Assembly (NCBI GenBank): GCA_944391475.1
Contig: CALXTR010000017.1
Span: forward strand, 1 to 33,026
Length of the DNA: 33,026 bases
Direction: 5' to 3'
Origin: an uncultured Alphaproteobacteria bacterium
Lineage (GTDB): Bacteria > Pseudomonadota > Alphaproteobacteria > RF32 > CAG-239
Part shown: positions 7,781 to 33,026 of the stretch, in pieces
Layout: every line of letters starts with the position of its first letter
Position numbering within the stretch: the first letter of the stretch is position 1
Made by a program: the position numbers and the translations under genes
Notes under the pieces: model-generated
What the model was told of the DNA's origin: nothing
Seen by the model: the letters and a program-made list of their open reading frames with translations, nothing else
Databases searched by the model: none

Positions 7781-9205
7781 TTAAGGGATGTAGACGGTAT
7801 GCAACATATTAGTCCTGCCTTTCTTGCCGAGCGGAAAACCGGCCGTGATGATGATGTGATCACCAGAATGAGCAAAACCATTTTCTACCGCAATTTTTAC
7901 GGCAATGTCTTCTACCTTATCAAAACTCTTGAAACTATCCTTATTTACAAAACTCTTAGCCCCCCAAACCAAAGCCATTTTTCTGGCTACAGCAATATCA
8001 GGAGTTACAGCCAAAATAGGTAGATTTGGACGTTCACGAGCCGTTAACAGCGTGGTAAATCCTGAAGAAGTGTAAGTCACAATCGCCGCCACATTGTTGA
8101 GCACGGTAGGAATATCGGAAGCCGCATAAGTAATGGCATCGGCCTCATCGGCACAACAATGATTGCGACGAGAGTTTTGCATGCAGGTGTAAAACAGCGG
8201 ATCCGATTCGACTTGGATAATGATGTCACGCATCATCTTCACAGCCTCAACCGGATATTTTCCGGCCGCAGTTTCAGCTGAAAGCATCACCGTGTCGGCC
8301 CCATCATAAACCGCAGTAGCCACATCGGATACTTCTGCTCGAGTAGGCGATGGATTATTAATCATCGATTCGAGCATTTGGGTTGCCACAATCACCGGAC
8401 GAGCATATTTGCGACAAGCTGCCACAATCCGTTTTTGAAGCACCGGCACGGTTTGAATAGGACACTCCACACCCAAATCACCGCGAGCCACCATAATGGC
8501 ATCAGACAGGCGGATAATTTCATCTAGTTCATCAATTGCGCTGGGTTTTTCGAGTTTAGAAATCAGCCAAGCTTTGTCCCCAATCAGTTCACGAGCACGA
8601 CGCACATCAGCAGCACTTTGCACAAAGGACATTCCAATCCAATCTACTCCAAGTTTGAGTGCAAACTTCAAATCTTCTTCATCTTTGGGAGTAATAGCAG
8701 AGATTGGCAGTTGAGTGTTAGGAAGATTAACCCCCTTATGACCGGATAGATAGCCACCTACTTTTACGGTTGTACGCGCCATAGATTCGTTACAGTCTTC
8801 CACATGAAGCACGATGCTGCCATCATTTAAGAGCAAATCATCACCTGGTTTAAGTGCCGCAAAAATTTCGGGGTGCGGCAGATTGACGCGACGTTCATCA
8901 CCAAGAGCCTTGTCCAAATCCAACACAAAGTGTTCGCCTTCTTTCAAGAAGACTTTTCCGTCCTTAAAATCACCCACTCTAAGTTTTGGCCCCTGCATAT
9001 CGGCCAAGATAGAAATATGCCGATTCTTAGCCTTAGCCAGTTTTCGAACAATTTCATAACGCTCTTTGTGTTCCTCGTGCGTTCCATGACTAAAGTTAAA
9101 ACGGAAACCATCAACCCCGGCATCAATCAATTTTTCAATTTGCTCTTTGGTGGCCGAAGATGGACCAATAGTAGCCAAGATTTTGGTTTTTGTTTGCAAC
9201 GGCAT
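7781..9205 (-). CDS. pyk: Pyruvate kinase
   Basis: Pyruvate kinase transfers phosphate from phosphoenolpyruvate to ADP, the last step of glycolysis. The 474-residue protein has the TIM-barrel active site: FRFNFSHG near residue 35, ISKLEKP with the catalytic lysine, and the MVARGDLGVE metal-binding motif, followed by the conserved ATQMLESMI segment. The C-terminal regulatory domain is of ordinary size, and no extra phosphotransfer domain is attached. I chose ATG 9205 because GAGGTG lies six bases upstream; frames from 9214 would begin within the ribosome site. It is divergent from gapR. The palindromic element at 7678-7777 follows its stop. Confidence 0.96.
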   Translation of the reverse strand: MPLQTKTKILATIGPSSATKEQIEKLIDAGVDGFRFNFSHGTHEEHKERYEIVRKLAKAKNRHISILADMQGPKLRVGDFKDGKVFLKEGEHFVLDLDKALGDERRVNLPHPEIFAALKPGDDLLLNDGSIVLHVEDCNESMARTTVKVGGYLSGHKGVNLPNTQLPISAITPKDEEDLKFALKLGVDWIGMSFVQSAADVRRARELIGDKAWLISKLEKPSAIDELDEIIRLSDAIMVARGDLGVECPIQTVPVLQKRIVAACRKYARPVIVATQMLESMINNPSPTRAEVSDVATAVYDGADTVMLSAETAAGKYPVEAVKMMRDIIIQVESDPLFYTCMQNSRRNHCCADEADAITYAASDIPTVLNNVAAIVTYTSSGFTTLLTARERPNLPILAVTPDIAVARKMALVWGAKSFVNKDSFKSFDKVEDIAVKIAVENGFAHSGDHIIITAGFPLGKKGRTNMLHTVYIP

Positions 9206-24206: not shown

Positions 24207-25691
24207 ATGTTGCCTCAAAAAAACCATGCTTCAGCCATGCGCGCAGAAATTCTAGTTCAGGTCGCTAAAAGTTTTCTTAGCTCTCGTTTTGACAATGCCG
24301 ACCACATTCCTAACCTCATCTGCCCCGATAGCACCCAACCTTTGCGAGGCAATATTGAAGCAGACCGCACCTACGTCAAATATGCCGCTCTTGCTGCCAT
24401 GGGTTTTGATCCAGATACAATAAATGAAGACAACATTTCGCTAAAATCATACGGACAGAAAGCATTAGAGCGGACCTCTGCTCCCGCTAGCGTATTATCC
24501 GTAATCAAAAAATCTTGCGCGGCCTGCATGAGCCAAAGATATCTTGTTAGCAACAATTGCCGCACCTGTCTGGCTCGTCCCTGTATGTTAAATTGTCCCA
24601 AACAAGCCATTGAGGTAAATAACCAAGCCTCAATTGACCAAACTAAATGCATCAAATGTGGGCGTTGTGAAGATGTTTGTCCCTACAAAGCTATCATTAA
24701 AGTTCCGCTCCCCTGCGAAGATGCCTGCCCTGTCGGCGCCATCAGCAAAACTGAAGACGGCCGTGAATATATTGACCATAACAAATGCATATCTTGCGGT
24801 AAGTGCCTAAATTCTTGTCCTTTTGGAGTTATTGTTGAAACTTCGCAAATGATAGATGTAATGCGCGAACTCAACACTCCCCAAAAAGAAGTTGTCGCCA
24901 TGCTCGCACCATCGATACTGGGACAATTTTCTGGAAGTATCAATAATTTGGTTGGAGCATTACAAAAGCTTGGGTTCAGCCATGTGATTGAAGTTGCAGT
25001 CGGAGCCGACATCACCACCCTTAACGAAGCCGCCGAATTTGTAGAAAAAGCCCAAAAAGGCGAACAGCTAATGACCACATCTTGTTGTCCGGCATATTTC
25101 AAAGCTGCTGAGGTACATATACCCGAAATTCAACCTTACGTATCTCACACCAAAACCCCGATGTACTACACAGCTGAACTAGTCAAAAAAGAACGCCCCA
25201 ATTGCACTACAGTTTTCATCGGCCCCTGCCTTGCCAAACGGGTTGAAGCCGAAAATGATCCTCATGTAGATTATGTTATAACTTTTGAAGAAATTGGAGC
25301 AATTTTACAAGCCCACGAGATTAATGTTGCCGAATGCGATTCCGTAGAATTTAGCGAAATTTCTTGCGCACAAGGTCGCGGATTTTCTATTTCAGGAGGT
25401 GTTGCCGGAGCGGTAGCCAGCCTTATTGAAGGAAAAGTAAATTACCTACCGCTCAAAATTGATGGTTTGACCAAAGAAAGTATCAAATCACTGAAAAAAT
25501 ATGGACAACAAGCCACCAGTGGAACTGTTTGCACCAATCCCGATGGGTGTCCATTTAACATGATTGAGGTCATGTGCTGTGAAGGAGGATGTGTCGCCGG
25601 ACCTGGATGTATTGCGCTATCTAAAAAAGCTGCCCGAGCGGTTGAAACTTACACTGCACAAGGCGCCAACCTCAAAGACAAACAATCTTAA
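24207..25691 (+). CDS. Monomeric [FeFe] hydrogenase, group-B-like
   Basis: The enzyme couples ferredoxin to proton reduction or hydrogen oxidation. The 494-residue protein has cysteine clusters for 4Fe-4S sites (C118-C130, C148-C158, C170/C174, C194-C204). The three H-cluster motifs follow: TTSCCPAYF at 290-298, IGPCLAK at 338-344 and EVMCCEGGCVAG at 454-465. The GPCLAK and MCCEGGC forms match the group-B monomeric family rather than the classic MPCxxK form. It is cytoplasmic. The maturation genes hydEFG and any electron-bifurcating partners are not in this window. The start at 24207 has only a weak ribosome site. It is transcribed alone and ends in a strong terminator. Hydrogenases of this type are common in anaerobic gut bacteria and unusual in Alphaproteobacteria. 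Confidence 0.9.
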   Translation: MLPQKNHASAMRAEILVQVAKSFLSSRFDNADHIPNLICPDSTQPLRGNIEADRTYVKYAALAAMGFDPDTINEDNISLKSYGQKALERTSAPASVLSVIKKSCAACMSQRYLVSNNCRTCLARPCMLNCPKQAIEVNNQASIDQTKCIKCGRCEDVCPYKAIIKVPLPCEDACPVGAISKTEDGREYIDHNKCISCGKCLNSCPFGVIVETSQMIDVMRELNTPQKEVVAMLAPSILGQFSGSINNLVGALQKLGFSHVIEVAVGADITTLNEAAEFVEKAQKGEQLMTTSCCPAYFKAAEVHIPEIQPYVSHTKTPMYYTAELVKKERPNCTTVFIGPCLAKRVEAENDPHVDYVITFEEIGAILQAHEINVAECDSVEFSEISCAQGRGFSISGGVAGAVASLIEGKVNYLPLKIDGLTKESIKSLKKYGQQATSGTVCTNPDGCPFNMIEVMCCEGGCVAGPGCIALSKKAARAVETYTAQGANLKDKQS

Positions 25692-27440: not shown

Positions 27441-27854
27441 TTACCTATACCCGTAATAATCATTGCTATCATAGTAAATATATACATCTTTAGAATTCAT
27501 CAATTCTAAATCCTGAAACAAATTAGCTCTTTCCGGAGCCAATCCTTTTTCAGCAATTACTTTCAAATCCTCTAAGTAATAATAATAAGCTGTGGGGATA
27601 TTAGGCTTATCCAAAATTTTATAATTTTGTTTCATTTTTTCCGCCGCTTTTTCCCCTGCTTTTTTTGCCTCTGCTTCACGTTTTTTTTGTTGCTCTGTTG
27701 CTATCTGATAAGCAGACTTAGGTTTTTGCATCCTAGATGCCTCCACTTGTATTTCATATACAATATCGTCTTCAGCCCACGATTCGCTCATCCAAGCCAC
27801 ACCCAGAGCTCCCAAGACAAAACTTCCCACTCCCGCCAAAATTACTTGTTTCAC
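27441..27854 (-). CDS. Small exported protein, module copy 1
   Basis: The 137-residue protein starts with GTG at 27854, supported by GGAGAG six bases upstream. It has a signal peptide (cleavage near SWA-ED, residue 27), a charged helical middle (KKREAEAKKAGEKAAEKMKQ), and a C-terminal segment homologous to the gene at 28770-29087: PTAYYYYLEDLKVIAEKGLA...DLELMNSKDVYIYY against MAYDDYLYDVQIIAETGRA...DLRVMNNNQIFIYE. The conserved part is the last 45 or so residues. Function is unknown. Its partner is the divergent gene at 27969. Confidence 0.75.
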   Translation of the reverse strand: MKQVILAGVGSFVLGALGVAWMSESWAEDDIVYEIQVEASRMQKPKSAYQIATEQQKKREAEAKKAGEKAAEKMKQNYKILDKPNIPTAYYYYLEDLKVIAEKGLAPERANLFQDLELMNSKDVYIYYDSNDYYGYR

Positions 27855-27968
27855 AACAAACTCTCCAAAAAAACTAAACTATATACAATATAGTATAAGA
27901 ATTTTAACAAATTAATAACATCTATCATATATTATTTATATCATTAACAATTATCGAAGAAGCCCAAC

Positions 27969-28721
27969 ATGAAAAAAGTTTATTACATTGCATTTTATGT
28001 ATGGTTACTCAGTTTTCCTGGCATCTGCCGTGCTGATTTTGAGGCAGACCGTTTCTTTGACTGCGCTGGAATGCAAGTTCCGCTACGTATTATTTTTAAA
28101 ACCTCCTATGGTCAACTCATTCATGATGTATCAACTGAAGAAAAAAGCATTTTAAACAACAATAACAATCTTAAAACAGAAAAATTGTACCTTAATTCTA
28201 GTTACAACTCTGTTCAGCCATATGGATACGTCACCCTTACTTCAGCATTGACCGAATATATAAGCAACAATAAAACCTGCATAATTCCGGAAACCATTGA
28301 AGTCTTTATTGGTTATCGCGACCCTATGATATATATAGCTAAAGAATTTAGAAGCAAACCTTGTGAATTTTCAGTTATGCTGCGCCATCAACAAGTACAC
28401 CAGCAAATCAACATTTATACACTTCAATATTTGCTCCCCTTAATGAAAGAGGCCATTATTAGCGCCACTCAAAACATTACCCCTATTGTATCCACGAGCA
28501 AAAGTTCTTTCAATAATGATATCAAAAAGCTACAAGAGATATATACTGCAGCAATTCAGCCGATTTTAATTGCATTTGATGAAATACGACAAGAAGAAAA
28601 TCGTAAATTTGACGAAGTTACCAACTACAAAATAGATGAAAAACTTTGCCAAAAATATAATTTGCGCCGACTAAAATCAAAGAAACAAAGTTCCCACTCG
28701 ACATCAACCACCAAACGATAA
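27969..28721 (+). CDS. Exported protein, degenerate zincin-like paralogue, module copy 1
   Basis: The 250-residue protein has a signal peptide (first 22 residues) and is a clear paralogue of the gene at 29165-29866, sharing RIIFKTSYGQLIHDVST, the block around IYIAKEF, and NRKFDEVTNY. Where the paralogue has HEQTH this copy has HQQVH (140-144), and where the paralogue has EHEH it has QEEN. Four cysteines are shared and could form two disulfides. If the family is a zinc protease, this copy is probably inactive and may act as a binding or inhibitory partner. The basic, serine-rich C-terminus is unique to it. The ribosome site is weak (AAGAAG). Confidence 0.75.
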   Translation: MKKVYYIAFYVWLLSFPGICRADFEADRFFDCAGMQVPLRIIFKTSYGQLIHDVSTEEKSILNNNNNLKTEKLYLNSSYNSVQPYGYVTLTSALTEYISNNKTCIIPETIEVFIGYRDPMIYIAKEFRSKPCEFSVMLRHQQVHQQINIYTLQYLLPLMKEAIISATQNITPIVSTSKSSFNNDIKKLQEIYTAAIQPILIAFDEIRQEENRKFDEVTNYKIDEKLCQKYNLRRLKSKKQSSHSTSTTKR

Positions 28722-28769
28722 TAGACTTCAATCTTCAGTCATATAAATCGGTCGCCTTTTATGAATACC

Positions 28770-29087
28770 TCATTTGGTTTCATAGATAAAAATTTGATTA
28801 TTATTCATCACTCTCAAGTCATCATATAAGGCCTCATTGTCAGGAGCTCGACCTGTTTCAGCAATTATTTGGACATCATATAAATAATCATCATAAGCCA
28901 TCTGATACCTTGGTTTGATTGCACCTTGAAATTTTTGTAAAACCTCATCAGCGGTTGCTTCAGCTTCTGGTCGATATTTTTCCAACCAGTTATCTTCACT
29001 TTCGTAAACCACCTCTTGAGCTCGACAAACATTAGAGCTTAAGAGCTCTATCCCGCATATCGCAATCAATAAAACAAAATTCTTCAT
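28770..29087 (-). CDS. Small exported protein, module copy 2
   Basis: The 105-residue protein has a signal peptide (MKNFVLLIAICGIELLSSNVCRAQ) and a C-terminal domain homologous to the copy-1 small protein. The middle, helical segment of copy 1 is much shorter here. I use the ATG at 29087, which lies six bases after GAGGTG; the ATG directly before it and a GTG in the same frame are too close to the ribosome site. Function is unknown. Constant pairing with the zincin-like gene suggests that the two products act together, possibly as a propeptide, inhibitor or substrate; this is inference. Confidence 0.75.
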   Translation of the reverse strand: MKNFVLLIAICGIELLSSNVCRAQEVVYESEDNWLEKYRPEAEATADEVLQKFQGAIKPRYQMAYDDYLYDVQIIAETGRAPDNEALYDDLRVMNNNQIFIYETK

Positions 29088-29164
29088 CATAATCACCTCA
29101 TTGCTAAGGATAGTAAAATAATTTTAACAATTCGATAATAACATATATTAGGGAGTTGAAAAAA

Positions 29165-29866
29165 ATGCGTAAACCAACATTAATTATCGGAATTCTTATT
29201 AACTTATTGAGCTACGTACAGACTAGCCAATGCGGAGAAATACGTGCTCCTGAATGCGACAAACTCAATCCTTCTCCACGCATAATCTTTCAAACTTCAT
29301 ACGGACAACTAGTCCATGATATATCTACCCCTCAAAAGCAAATCCAAGCGTTATCCTCCCGTCCGGAAAAAGGTATTTTAATTGATGGTTTAGCCACAGC
29401 CGAAACCATAGGCTCAGTTAGAATAAGTAAGGCCCGAGGCATAAAATTAGATGACGGCAGCTATTGCATTTTGCCCCAAGAAGTCGAAGTATATTTTGGT
29501 TATGTCAACCCCACCATCTACATAGCAAAAGAATATCCTACCGATAGTTGCCGTTTTTCTTTACTAATTCGTCATGAGCAAACCCACCAGCGCATCAATA
29601 TTCTGACCTTAGAATACTTTTTGCCCCTCATTAAAATTGCAGCTCAAGGAATCATTCAACAAAGCCCGTCCGTCAAAATTTCCACCCCACAAGAAACCAA
29701 AGAGGCTTTGCGCAATCTCCAAGAATATTATATCTATATGCTCATGCCGCTAATAGAAAAATTTAACCTAGCTCGCGAACACGAGCATCGCAAATTAGAC
29801 AACCAAACTAACTACGCAATGGAAAGGGATATATGCACCAAATTTGATTTTCCGCAGAATAATTAG
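29165..29866 (+). CDS. Exported zincin-like protein with HExxH, module copy 2
   Basis: The 233-residue protein has a signal peptide (first 25 residues) and a conserved HEQTH motif at 137-141 in LLIRHEQTHQRINILTLEYFLP, followed by REHEHRKLDNQTNY (204-217), whose histidines could complete a metal site. The layout recalls the DUF922 family of predicted secreted zinc proteases, where an HExxH helix is followed by a motif near YD..T.HG; I consider this family assignment tentative. Four cysteines shared with copy 1 suggest two disulfides. I start it at ATG 29165, nine bases after GGGAG, rather than at a TTG that touches that site. Confidence 0.75.
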   Translation: MRKPTLIIGILINLLSYVQTSQCGEIRAPECDKLNPSPRIIFQTSYGQLVHDISTPQKQIQALSSRPEKGILIDGLATAETIGSVRISKARGIKLDDGSYCILPQEVEVYFGYVNPTIYIAKEYPTDSCRFSLLIRHEQTHQRINILTLEYFLPLIKIAAQGIIQQSPSVKISTPQETKEALRNLQEYYIYMLMPLIEKFNLAREHEHRKLDNQTNYAMERDICTKFDFPQNN

Positions 29867-29931: not shown

Positions 29932-30135
29932 TCACAGCAGCTTGAGATTACCTGCTGCGATTCTACCACGATCATTGTAGGGCTCGTAAGCCACACGTTG
30001 CCCTGTCGCAATAGAACGCAAGCCAATCTTCTCCAACTGCGTTGCATGCACAAAAATATCTTTAGAGTCCCCATCAGGAACAATAAAACCATAACCCTTT
30101 TGGGTGTTATACCATTTAATATTACCAAAAAGCAT
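29932..30135 (-). CDS. Cold-shock domain protein
   Basis: The 67-residue protein is a single cold-shock domain: MLFGNIKWYN, the RNP1-like motif KGYGFIVP and the RNP2-like motif DIFVHATQL. Such proteins bind single-stranded RNA or DNA and act as RNA chaperones. A strong GGAGG lies nine bases before ATG 30135. The gene has its own terminator and stands between the duplicated module and a long gene-free block. Gene-family number (cspA, cspD etc.) cannot be told from the sequence. Confidence 0.95.
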   Translation of the reverse strand: MLFGNIKWYNTQKGYGFIVPDGDSKDIFVHATQLEKIGLRSIATGQRVAYEPYNDRGRIAAGNLKLL

Positions 30136-30743: not shown

Positions 30744-33026
30744 CTAAAATTCTAAAACGCATATGTAATTAATATAATTAATACTAGATTTGTAAGAATA
30801 GCTAATTTGCCCATCATCATAAATACTCCATACTGATGAAACTTTTCCATCACTTCCAATTCGTTCTGTCGATGACATAAATGATCCTGATATTGGAGTT
30901 TTATTGAGCTCAACGAATGCACTCTCAATAATAGCTTTGTTCTTGACGCGAATAGCTTCCAACTCCCCTAATGCTGGAAGATACCATTCTCCTGTGGTAC
31001 TTTTATCCCCATTGGGTGAGTATTTGGAGCACTTAATTACTGCATCCCCGGAATCACTAACGCTACTCAATTCATTAAGCCAAGCAGATGTATTTCCTTT
31101 GCCGTTCCAGTCTGATAACGCTGATTGCGCATCCGAATAGTTTGTGATTCCCTGAACATCAACAGAAGAGGCATTACGTGACCATTGACCATATTTAGAA
31201 TAAGATAAAGCAACTGCAACCTTTTTGCCATCTTTCTCATATCCCACAACACCAATTGGAGTTTTGTCTTTTAATTTACAAGCATTGCAAGTAAAGTCTG
31301 AATACACAATACTTCCAACTTCACAGCCTTCTTTGCATGTTTTTAAGCATTCTCTATTTCTCCATTCGTAACCAGGGGAACAAGTACAGCTTGCATAAAA
31401 ACCTCCGCAAGATTCCCCCACTCCTGCCAGCTCATTTATCCCTGAGCAAGTAGAAACATATGATCGATCGCAAATTCTGGCTTTTCTGTTTTCGTTTATT
31501 TCAATGGGTAAAACACATCTCACCGAACGAACGGTTTGTTTTGATCCTCTATCCCCATTATTTACACCGGCATATACAGAATACCCATTATCCGGTGAAG
31601 ATGCAAAATATCTAGTTGCAGATAGTGGAGTAGCCTCAATTTTTGTTAATCCATTGTTAATTGATGAAAAATTAGGCCATATGGTTGCTAATAATTCTCC
31701 TGATGCAGGTAAATACCAATCTCCAGTACTAGTAGCTGCTGTAACATAGTTGTAACAATATCCCGGAGCGTAACCGTCGGCATTTGCTCCATAATGATCT
31801 ACCCAAAATAAGGTTGCAGGTTTTCCGTCAAAATAGTTTTTCTGGTCTACCACCCATGAGATGTCTCCTATGCCATACACATCATTACTATCAGGACTCC
31901 ATGACAGTTGCGATTCTTTTAGGCTGACCGCCAATGCTTTTGATCCGTCAACATAACCAATAACGCCGATAGGAATTTTTCCATCTTCTTTTTCTGCAGA
32001 AATGGATAAATCATTAAATAAGATTTGCCCAATAAGAGAAGGAATAGTACACATACCGTCAACCCATTCATATCCATCAATACACTCGCAACTCTTATAC
32101 AGACCAGCACATGTATCACCACTGCCATTCGCATATCCCATGCCTTGACACCGATATCTATAGTCAGCTGAACAAATTTTTATTTTGCCTGCTTCATCAA
32201 CGTCCAACGGTAATGTACACATCAGCCGAGGTAAACGACCTAAGGTTGTTCCTTCATAATTACCTTTAATATCATCATATGGACGCCCAGAAGATAACTC
32301 CCACCCATGGATATAAGAAAGTTCCGAAGAAGAAGCATACTTATAGCTTATTTCATTTTTTCCGGCTGCAGCATACCCGCTATTTATTTTTTCACGATTA
32401 TTGATTAGAAAATAATTTAATTCGCCCATGGCGGGAAGATACCATTGGTTTTTTAATGTCCCAGAGGTCTGATAATTATAACATACTCCGGCGCTGTACG
32501 ATGTTCCACTGATTTTGTAGTGCGCAAAAGTATTCTCACGTCCGTTAAAATCACTAAGAACTTCTCGCACTGAGGTATAGTTTCGTATTCCTTTATAATC
32601 TTGAGCCCATCCCCATCTTCCAGACTTGACATCCAAACTGACCGCCAATCGTTCATTATTGTTTTTATACCCGATGATACCTATTGGCACTTTAGATGAA
32701 TCTAAAGTTACGCTGCAGGTTAAATCACTGTATAAAATATCTCCAACTTGACATAATGGTTTGCACTCACCATTGTCCCATACATAATCAACGGCACATT
32801 TGCAGGACTTGTACGTTCCCGCACAGGAATCACCCACTCCGCCGGTAATATGCGTCGAACTGTCAACTGAACAACTATAAATATACTCCTTATCACAAAC
32901 TTTCGCCGTCCCATTCCCCATATCCTCAAAAGCTAGGACACACCTGACATAAAAGGAGAGACCCTTAAGGCCGCCGGCCACACCGCCACTGGCATCCACA
33001 TTCCACGCGGTAAGGTAGCTATACTC
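30744..33026 (-). CDS. Large cysteine-rich repeat protein, 5' part beyond the right edge
   Basis: The frame is open from base 33026 to the stop at 30744, at least 760 residues. It consists of at least three and a half copies of a unit of about 235 residues. Each unit has an EGF-like cysteine-rich stretch (GVGDSCAGTYKSCKC...DNGEC), then VGDILYSDLTC, PIGVIGY, AVSL, W, and a GEWYLPALGEL motif followed by a block ending RCVLP. The WYLPA.GEL motif and the overall order resemble DUF1566/Lcl-type domains with a C-type-lectin-like fold, found in surface proteins. The frame starts within a unit, so no signal peptide can be seen. A role in surface binding is likely but inferred. Confidence 0.85.
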   Translation of the reverse strand, partial: EYSYLTAWNVDASGGVAGGLKGLSFYVRCVLAFEDMGNGTAKVCDKEYIYSCSVDSSTHITGGVGDSCAGTYKSCKCAVDYVWDNGECKPLCQVGDILYSDLTCSVTLDSSKVPIGIIGYKNNNERLAVSLDVKSGRWGWAQDYKGIRNYTSVREVLSDFNGRENTFAHYKISGTSYSAGVCYNYQTSGTLKNQWYLPAMGELNYFLINNREKINSGYAAAGKNEISYKYASSSELSYIHGWELSSGRPYDDIKGNYEGTTLGRLPRLMCTLPLDVDEAGKIKICSADYRYRCQGMGYANGSGDTCAGLYKSCECIDGYEWVDGMCTIPSLIGQILFNDLSISAEKEDGKIPIGVIGYVDGSKALAVSLKESQLSWSPDSNDVYGIGDISWVVDQKNYFDGKPATLFWVDHYGANADGYAPGYCYNYVTAATSTGDWYLPASGELLATIWPNFSSINNGLTKIEATPLSATRYFASSPDNGYSVYAGVNNGDRGSKQTVRSVRCVLPIEINENRKARICDRSYVSTCSGINELAGVGESCGGFYASCTCSPGYEWRNRECLKTCKEGCEVGSIVYSDFTCNACKLKDKTPIGVVGYEKDGKKVAVALSYSKYGQWSRNASSVDVQGITNYSDAQSALSDWNGKGNTSAWLNELSSVSDSGDAVIKCSKYSPNGDKSTTGEWYLPALGELEAIRVKNKAIIESAFVELNKTPISGSFMSSTERIGSDGKVSSVWSIYDDGQISYSYKSSINYINYICVLEF
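30747..31472 (-). repeat. Repeat unit 3 of the large surface protein
   Basis: This is the C-terminal unit, starting at CDRSYVSTCSG and ending ICVLEF, with GEWYLPALGEL near its middle. It has an extra CKEGCE cysteine pair absent from the other units and is the last before the stop. Confidence 0.8.
31509..32174 (-). repeat. Repeat unit 2 of the large surface protein
   Basis: The unit runs from CSADYRYRCQG to SVRCVLP and contains GDWYLPASGEL. The cysteines of the EGF-like stretch are in the same order as in unit 1. Its central loop (YFDGKPATLFWVDHYGANADGY) differs most from the other units. Confidence 0.8.
32211..32897 (-). repeat. Repeat unit 1 of the large surface protein
   Basis: The unit runs from CDKEYIYSCS to LMCTLPL and contains NQWYLPAMGEL. 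A partial unit precedes it up to the window edge, ending FYVRCVLAF, so at least one more copy exists outside the window. Confidence 0.8.

Follow-up and report, generated by a model that had tools for sequence, protein, structure and literature searches.

In the AprA/AprI system, a serralysin-type metalloprotease is paired with a periplasmic inhibitor, and inhibitors of the AprI type are beta-barrels. The locus analysed here resembles that system in that a gene for a metalloprotease-like protein adjoins a gene for a small exported protein. However, no relation between the two systems was detected, the small protein of our locus is predicted to be all-helical, and the two genes are divergent. 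A second point of comparison is the DUF922 family, whose members are predicted to be zincin-like, secreted metalloproteases (PMC3650047). The same source concerns the CLCA family, zincin relatives in which a catalytic residue has been replaced and which have been maintained. The CLCA domain is unrelated to the one described below, where, in contrast, each copy with a replaced catalytic residue has a small partner gene of its own. As for regulation, a single CtrA site can drive divergent promoters of less than 100 bp, as in the flagellar fliL2/fliF2 of Rhodobacter sphaeroides (PMC6180460). Our locus likewise has a putative TTAA-N7-TTAA-type site in a short divergent region, and its genome encodes CtrA, but its genes are not flagellar and its half-sites often deviate (TCAA, GTAA). 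The module formed by the two genes is real, conserved and undescribed, and each of its parts is of a recognisable kind.

A duplicated divergent gene pair and its relation to DUF922

The window, i.e. the whole analysed stretch of 33,026 nucleotides, belongs to a 1.56-Mb genome assembled in 36 contigs. As the first-pass annotation had described, it contains two tandem units, in each of which a gene for a small exported protein diverges from a gene for a larger one (Table 1). The four open reading frames are homologous pair by pair, with 36% identity over 205 aa between the large proteins (E = 1e-47) and 36% identity over 64 aa between the small ones (E = 2e-12), and the quoted motif strings, HEQTH and EHEH in copy 2 and HQQVH and QEEN in copy 1, are present. 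Typical signal peptides could be read from the sequence at the N-terminus of all four proteins. Because Shine-Dalgarno-like sequences lie at the right distance, the large protein of copy 2 likely starts at ATG 29165, with GGGAG ahead, and small partner 2 likely starts at ATG 29090 or 29087, behind GAGGTGAT. Residues of copy 2 are numbered here from TTG 29156; earlier numbers, counted from ATG 29165, are three lower, so that the former 137-141 and 205-208 correspond to 140-144 and 208-211.

Table 1. Positions of the genes, motifs and putative regulatory sites of the module in the window
Feature	Position	Strand	Remarks
Small exported partner 1 (137 aa; GTG start, GGAGAG ahead)	27441..27854	-	Signal peptide, then a K/E-rich linker and a conserved helical domain at the C-terminus
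CtrA-box-like GTATAAGAATTTTAAC, 7/9 consensus positions	27893..27908	.	Lies in the copy 1 divergent region; a register at 27904-27919 that overlaps it scores 8/9
Large exported protein, copy 1 (250 aa)	27969..28721	+	HQQVH, D215 and four Cys kept; predicted pseudoprotease
HQQVH motif, copy 1 (Glu141 to Gln)	28386..28400	+	
Small exported partner 2 (108 aa)	28770..29096	-	Homologous to small partner 1; order-wide profile
CtrA-box-like GTAAAATAATTTTAAC, 8/9 consensus positions	29113..29128	.	In the gap that separates the two start codons of copy 2
Large exported zincin-like protein, copy 2 (236 aa from TTG)	29156..29866	+	
HEQTH motif, copy 2 (His140, Glu141, His144)	29573..29587	+	
Asp215 codon, copy 2; candidate third metal ligand	29798..29800	+	Conserved class-wide together with HExxH

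In the window's genus, the module adjoins a gene whose product resembles monomeric [FeFe]-hydrogenases and contains ferredoxin-type cysteine clusters (24207-25691 in the window). At every tandem-type locus of the genus, the module is also flanked by a gene for a cold-shock-like protein of 67 aa (29932-30135 in the window); the product of this gene is 97% identical between the window genome (G000) and G099, and the latter has a second cold-shock-like gene within the locus. Near the end of the window (30744-32999), a 751-aa open reading frame encodes repeated Cys-rich modules with 'GEWYLPALGEL'-type motifs.

Sequence searches of the window proteins against Pfam, NCBIfam and PDB returned no credible match, and neither the large nor the small protein has a Pfam or NCBIfam name. 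The comparison with DUF922 (PF06037) suggested by the first-pass annotation was borne out by profile-profile similarity across the domain but not at the Pfam gathering cut-off (27 bits), which none of the window proteins reached. DUF922 was matched weakly by 7 of the 85 family members (best E = 2.7e-4), and an hhalign alignment of the family with DUF922 extended over 142 columns (probability 93, E = 2.7e-7), placing HExxH on HExxH and Asp on Asp; its score was 48.2, and none of 60 column shuffles exceeded 18.2. Downstream of HExxH, both families have a conserved Asp (F/L-D) close to the C-terminus. This Asp precedes TxHG in DUF922 but NxxNY in the window family, where Tyr occupies the position of the His, and the window family further differs in having four conserved Cys, longer helices and a divergent partner gene. 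By these comparisons, the large protein is a member of an undescribed family that is distantly related to DUF922.

The AlphaFold2 model of the large protein of copy 2, a confident one (pLDDT 90.8, pTM 0.81), consists of a long beta hairpin (78-97, 103-123), a long helix (132-168) that bears HExxH, and an antiparallel helix (178-214) that ends at D215. In the model, the helical hairpin returns the 206-215 segment towards H140 and H144, which is consistent with a metal site. Among the matches listed, Foldseek and VIA-align searches with this model retrieved no solved zincin other than an unspecific helical match; glycine receptors and Rab GTPases appeared without a credible relation, and the best VIA-align Z was 4.7, in a comparison whose rows depend on Foldseek, so that a fold missed by Foldseek cannot appear.

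Small proteins of the family are between 101 and 389 aa long; the length of their linker varies greatly, and a C-terminal helical domain of ~45 residues is conserved. They gave no match to Pfam, including the family of serralysin inhibitors (Inh/AprI). The model of small protein 2 is all-helical (pLDDT 84.7, pTM 0.42), and a fold search with it returned nothing. Six proteins compared with the PADLOC anti-phage profiles had no match, and in the literature searched DUF922 was mentioned in two papers and COG5661 in none.

Active-site residues in the large proteins

HExxH is intact in 87 of the 91 proteins of the order set, which includes one outside relative, and D215, four positions past residue 211, is present in all 91. 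Across the 56 rows of the class-wide alignment, H140 is kept in 56, E141 in 54, H144 in 56 and D215 in 55. The large protein is predicted to be a small exported, disulfide-containing, zincin-like metalloprotease that would use HExxH and D215. Copy 2 had been proposed to be an active metalloprotease with zinc-binding residues in both HEQTH and EHEH; the conservation of HExxH and the distant kinship with DUF922 favour the first half of this proposal, but EHEH shows no conservation as a site. Of the 91 members, 69 have Q at residue 211, 13 have H and 7 have N, and EHEH was rejected as the zinc site.

An alternative reading is that the large protein is no protease in life but has a structural or metal-binding role in the envelope, as part of a module that serves assembly or zinc handling. 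Such a role would fit both the failure of the model to match a solved zincin and the maintenance of a copy without the catalytic Glu. We consider it very unlikely, given that Glu141 persists in nearly all class-wide rows, where few other positions survive divergence, and given the kinship with DUF922, itself predicted to be zincin-like (PMC3650047).

All four exceptions to HExxH come from the window's genus and are of the copy-1 type, with HQQVH in the window and G099 and HFQTH in G096 and G097. Copy 1 retains H140, H144, E210, D215 and the four Cys, having lost the catalytic Glu alone. The observation that HEQTH and EHEH are altered together in this copy thus holds for the former, whereas the latter is no conserved element and the conserved D215 is kept; a loss of all metal ligands was rejected because H140, H144 and D215 remain. 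As both His residues and D215 are in place, the predicted loss in copy 1 is that of the general base and not necessarily that of the metal, which makes it a predicted pseudoprotease with a possible capacity for metal binding. A separate and fuller loss of the active site is seen in a different alphaproteobacterial family, where one relative (L161:2367-3074), the other of the class-wide rows without Glu, has HQLQH together with a change of D215 to Met.

Pairing, duplication and retention of the two genes

The large protein is encoded in 140 of the 153 genomes of the order, which from the kind of genome would be gut bacteria, and the small partner in 139 of the 153, essentially always beside the large gene. 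Ten genomes lack both (p ~2e-10 by Fisher's exact test on the 2x2 table, a value that serves as a guide only since the genomes are related). The discordant genomes include some with contig-edge fragments, for example G092 and G139, where the matches begin at or near the contig end; in two other discordant genomes, G102 and G122, divergent small genes were recovered by a local profile. The arrangement is head-to-head at nearly all loci of the order, with a gap that in core copies (see below) is most often 43-45 bp, and copy numbers of the two genes are equal in most genomes with 2-3 copies. The recurrence of the divergent pair in related genomes, on which the first-pass annotation had staked its proposal, was found near one-to-one across the order. 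In a sample of 289 genomes of the class, the large protein is present in 52, often in tandem, while the small partner was detected in the four members of the order included there and in no genome outside it. As far as the searches reach, the pairing appears to be specific to this order. Because outside the order the large family is found with no small partner detected, the fold of the large protein does not require one. In several other alphaproteobacterial families, relatives of the large protein (L155, L156, L157, L158 and L184) are encoded two or three in tandem; every one has HExxH and none has the small partner.

The genome holds more than the window pair: elsewhere in it lies a third, 'core' copy (G000:C13:12890-13495), which likewise has a small gene diverging from it. 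On one side of it are two genes that we take, from our own reading of the sequence, to be smpB and argS, and on the other side is a gene for a HAD-type phosphatase, with which the core copies of most genera are convergent. A tree of 89 proteins contains a supported accessory clade, including both window copies, apart from the core lineage. The accessory cassettes are found at varied loci with unrelated neighbourhoods, and the window's genus has two of them in tandem. In G096, G097 and G100, a gene resembling those of flagellins is located next to the accessory pairs or between them (L036:3970-5397, L038, L040); in G099 its place is occupied by an MFS transporter gene.

For each of the 75 small proteins compared (75/75), the nearest relative belongs to the same class, core or accessory, as its own large partner. 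Distance matrices of small and large proteins correlate (r = 0.82 for accessory and 0.81 for core copies, overall range 0.76-0.82; Mantel p = 0.0005), a co-divergence that partly reflects shared species history. In genus g13 (L105-L108), the module has been doubled in tandem independently: HExxH is present in both copies, and a diverged HELQH paralogue stands beside the core copy; most of these doubled copies have a recognisable small gene in front. The separate core and accessory clades, the same-class nearest relatives, the matrix correlation, the varied neighbourhoods and the doubling in g13 together indicate that the small and large genes duplicate, move and diverge as one unit.

Comparison of the window with G099 gave pN 0.19 and pS 0.83 for copy 2, pN 0.06 and pS 0.70 for the core copy, and pN 0.17 and pS 0.76 for small 1 and its orthologue, and the HFQTH pair of G096 and G097 gave pN 0.20 and pS 0.80; as synonymous sites are saturated, these values do not amount to exact dN/dS. 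The proposal that copy 1 is a decaying pseudogene was rejected, because its open reading frame is intact, it is conserved in sister species and its pN in the same comparison with G099 is 0.18 versus a pS of 0.77. These figures point clearly to purifying selection on copy 1 and small 1. The view of copy 1 as an inactive paralogue kept by selection is upheld as regards the missing Glu and the selection, but not as regards the loss of a second site.

The small partner persists beside the Glu-less large copy in both the HQQVH and the HFQTH lineages, which bears on what the partner does. It might be an inhibitor that blocks the cleft of the zincin in the periplasm, with copy 1 titrating it as a decoy. 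The obligate divergent pairing and co-duplication would fit such a role, and a Glu-less copy with its own partner could serve as an inhibitor sink, but a dead enzyme needs no inhibitor, yet the partner is kept under purifying selection; the wide size range, with only a short conserved C-terminal domain, is also more adaptor-like, and we regard inhibition as unlikely. It might otherwise be the substrate, which the zincin would cut, thereby liberating the C-terminal domain or detaching the small protein from an anchor. Exclusive pairing agrees with this, as does a variable linker joined to a conserved C-terminal domain, the layout of a processed precursor, but the retention of the partner beside dead copies in two lineages speaks against it and makes a pure substrate unlikely. 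A partner kept under selection beside a dead enzyme favours a stable complex, i.e. a binding role, over a function only as substrate or only as inhibitor.

In G100, the corresponding stretch holds no trace of copy 1 but a live accessory pair is present, so the Glu-less copy has apparently been lost there and is dispensable. Gene order is conserved in the genus, with the dead copy on the hydrogenase side and the live copy on the cold-shock-protein side, and this favours one duplication. The tree places each dead pair with live copies of its own lineage; in an AU test, a single clade of dead copies was not rejected (p = 0.07). Possibly, the catalytic Glu was lost twice independently, in the HQQVH and HFQTH lineages.

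Putative CtrA control and the proposed role of the module

An element of the form [T/G/C]TAA- or TCAA-N7-TTAA(C) is present in the divergent regions. A box with at least 8 of the 9 consensus positions occurs in 38 of 74 divergent regions versus 13 of 138 control gaps, which are longer gaps from the same loci; in shuffles, ~7% of regions reach this score. The box is oriented towards the large gene in 57 of the 62 cases that score at least 7. In core copies, TTAAC typically ends 22-25 bp before the start of the large gene and is followed by a -10-like TATTAT a few bases ahead of the ATG, a proximity that suggests a leaderless transcript. Genus g3 largely lacks the box. CtrA is encoded in the genome (NF045991, 400.6 bits versus a cut-off of 350). 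Exact TTAA-N7-TTAAC sites are not enriched genome-wide over a reversed control (31 vs 49), and for that reason CtrA control is something we infer; the enrichment of the box and the presence of CtrA make it a testable proposal that the module is under cell-cycle control. Two CtrA-box-like sites also lie close upstream of dnaA (G000:C15:7593-7608 and 8110-8129; L256, L233), where they would be expected were CtrA to act close to the origin of replication in this order.

The reading that we favour, tentatively and at slightly less than an even chance, is a two-protein module of the cell envelope, comprising a periplasmic zincin and a dedicated adaptor, with copy 1 as a non-catalytic binder. The small exported protein would be the dedicated binding partner of the zincin, on which its ~45-residue C-terminal domain would dock. 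One short divergent promoter region, probably controlled by CtrA, would be common to both genes, so that the two proteins would be made together. The core copy is kept throughout the order, and the accessory version is a self-contained cassette at varied loci. Copy 1 would not cleave but bind, serving as a decoy, a scaffold or a regulator. A more elaborate scheme, unlikely when taken as a whole, would be an order-wide envelope system under CtrA cell-cycle control with an adaptor acquired by the order, in which tandem duplication has produced, possibly on two independent occasions, a pseudoprotease complex that binds metal and regulates its active counterpart.

The natural pseudoprotease copies with their retained partners offer a test of the role of the partner once catalysis is gone, and the CtrA-like box provides a directly testable link between the module and the cell cycle. 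As nearly every genome of this uncultured, presumably gut-dwelling order encodes the module, it probably matters to the bacterial envelope.
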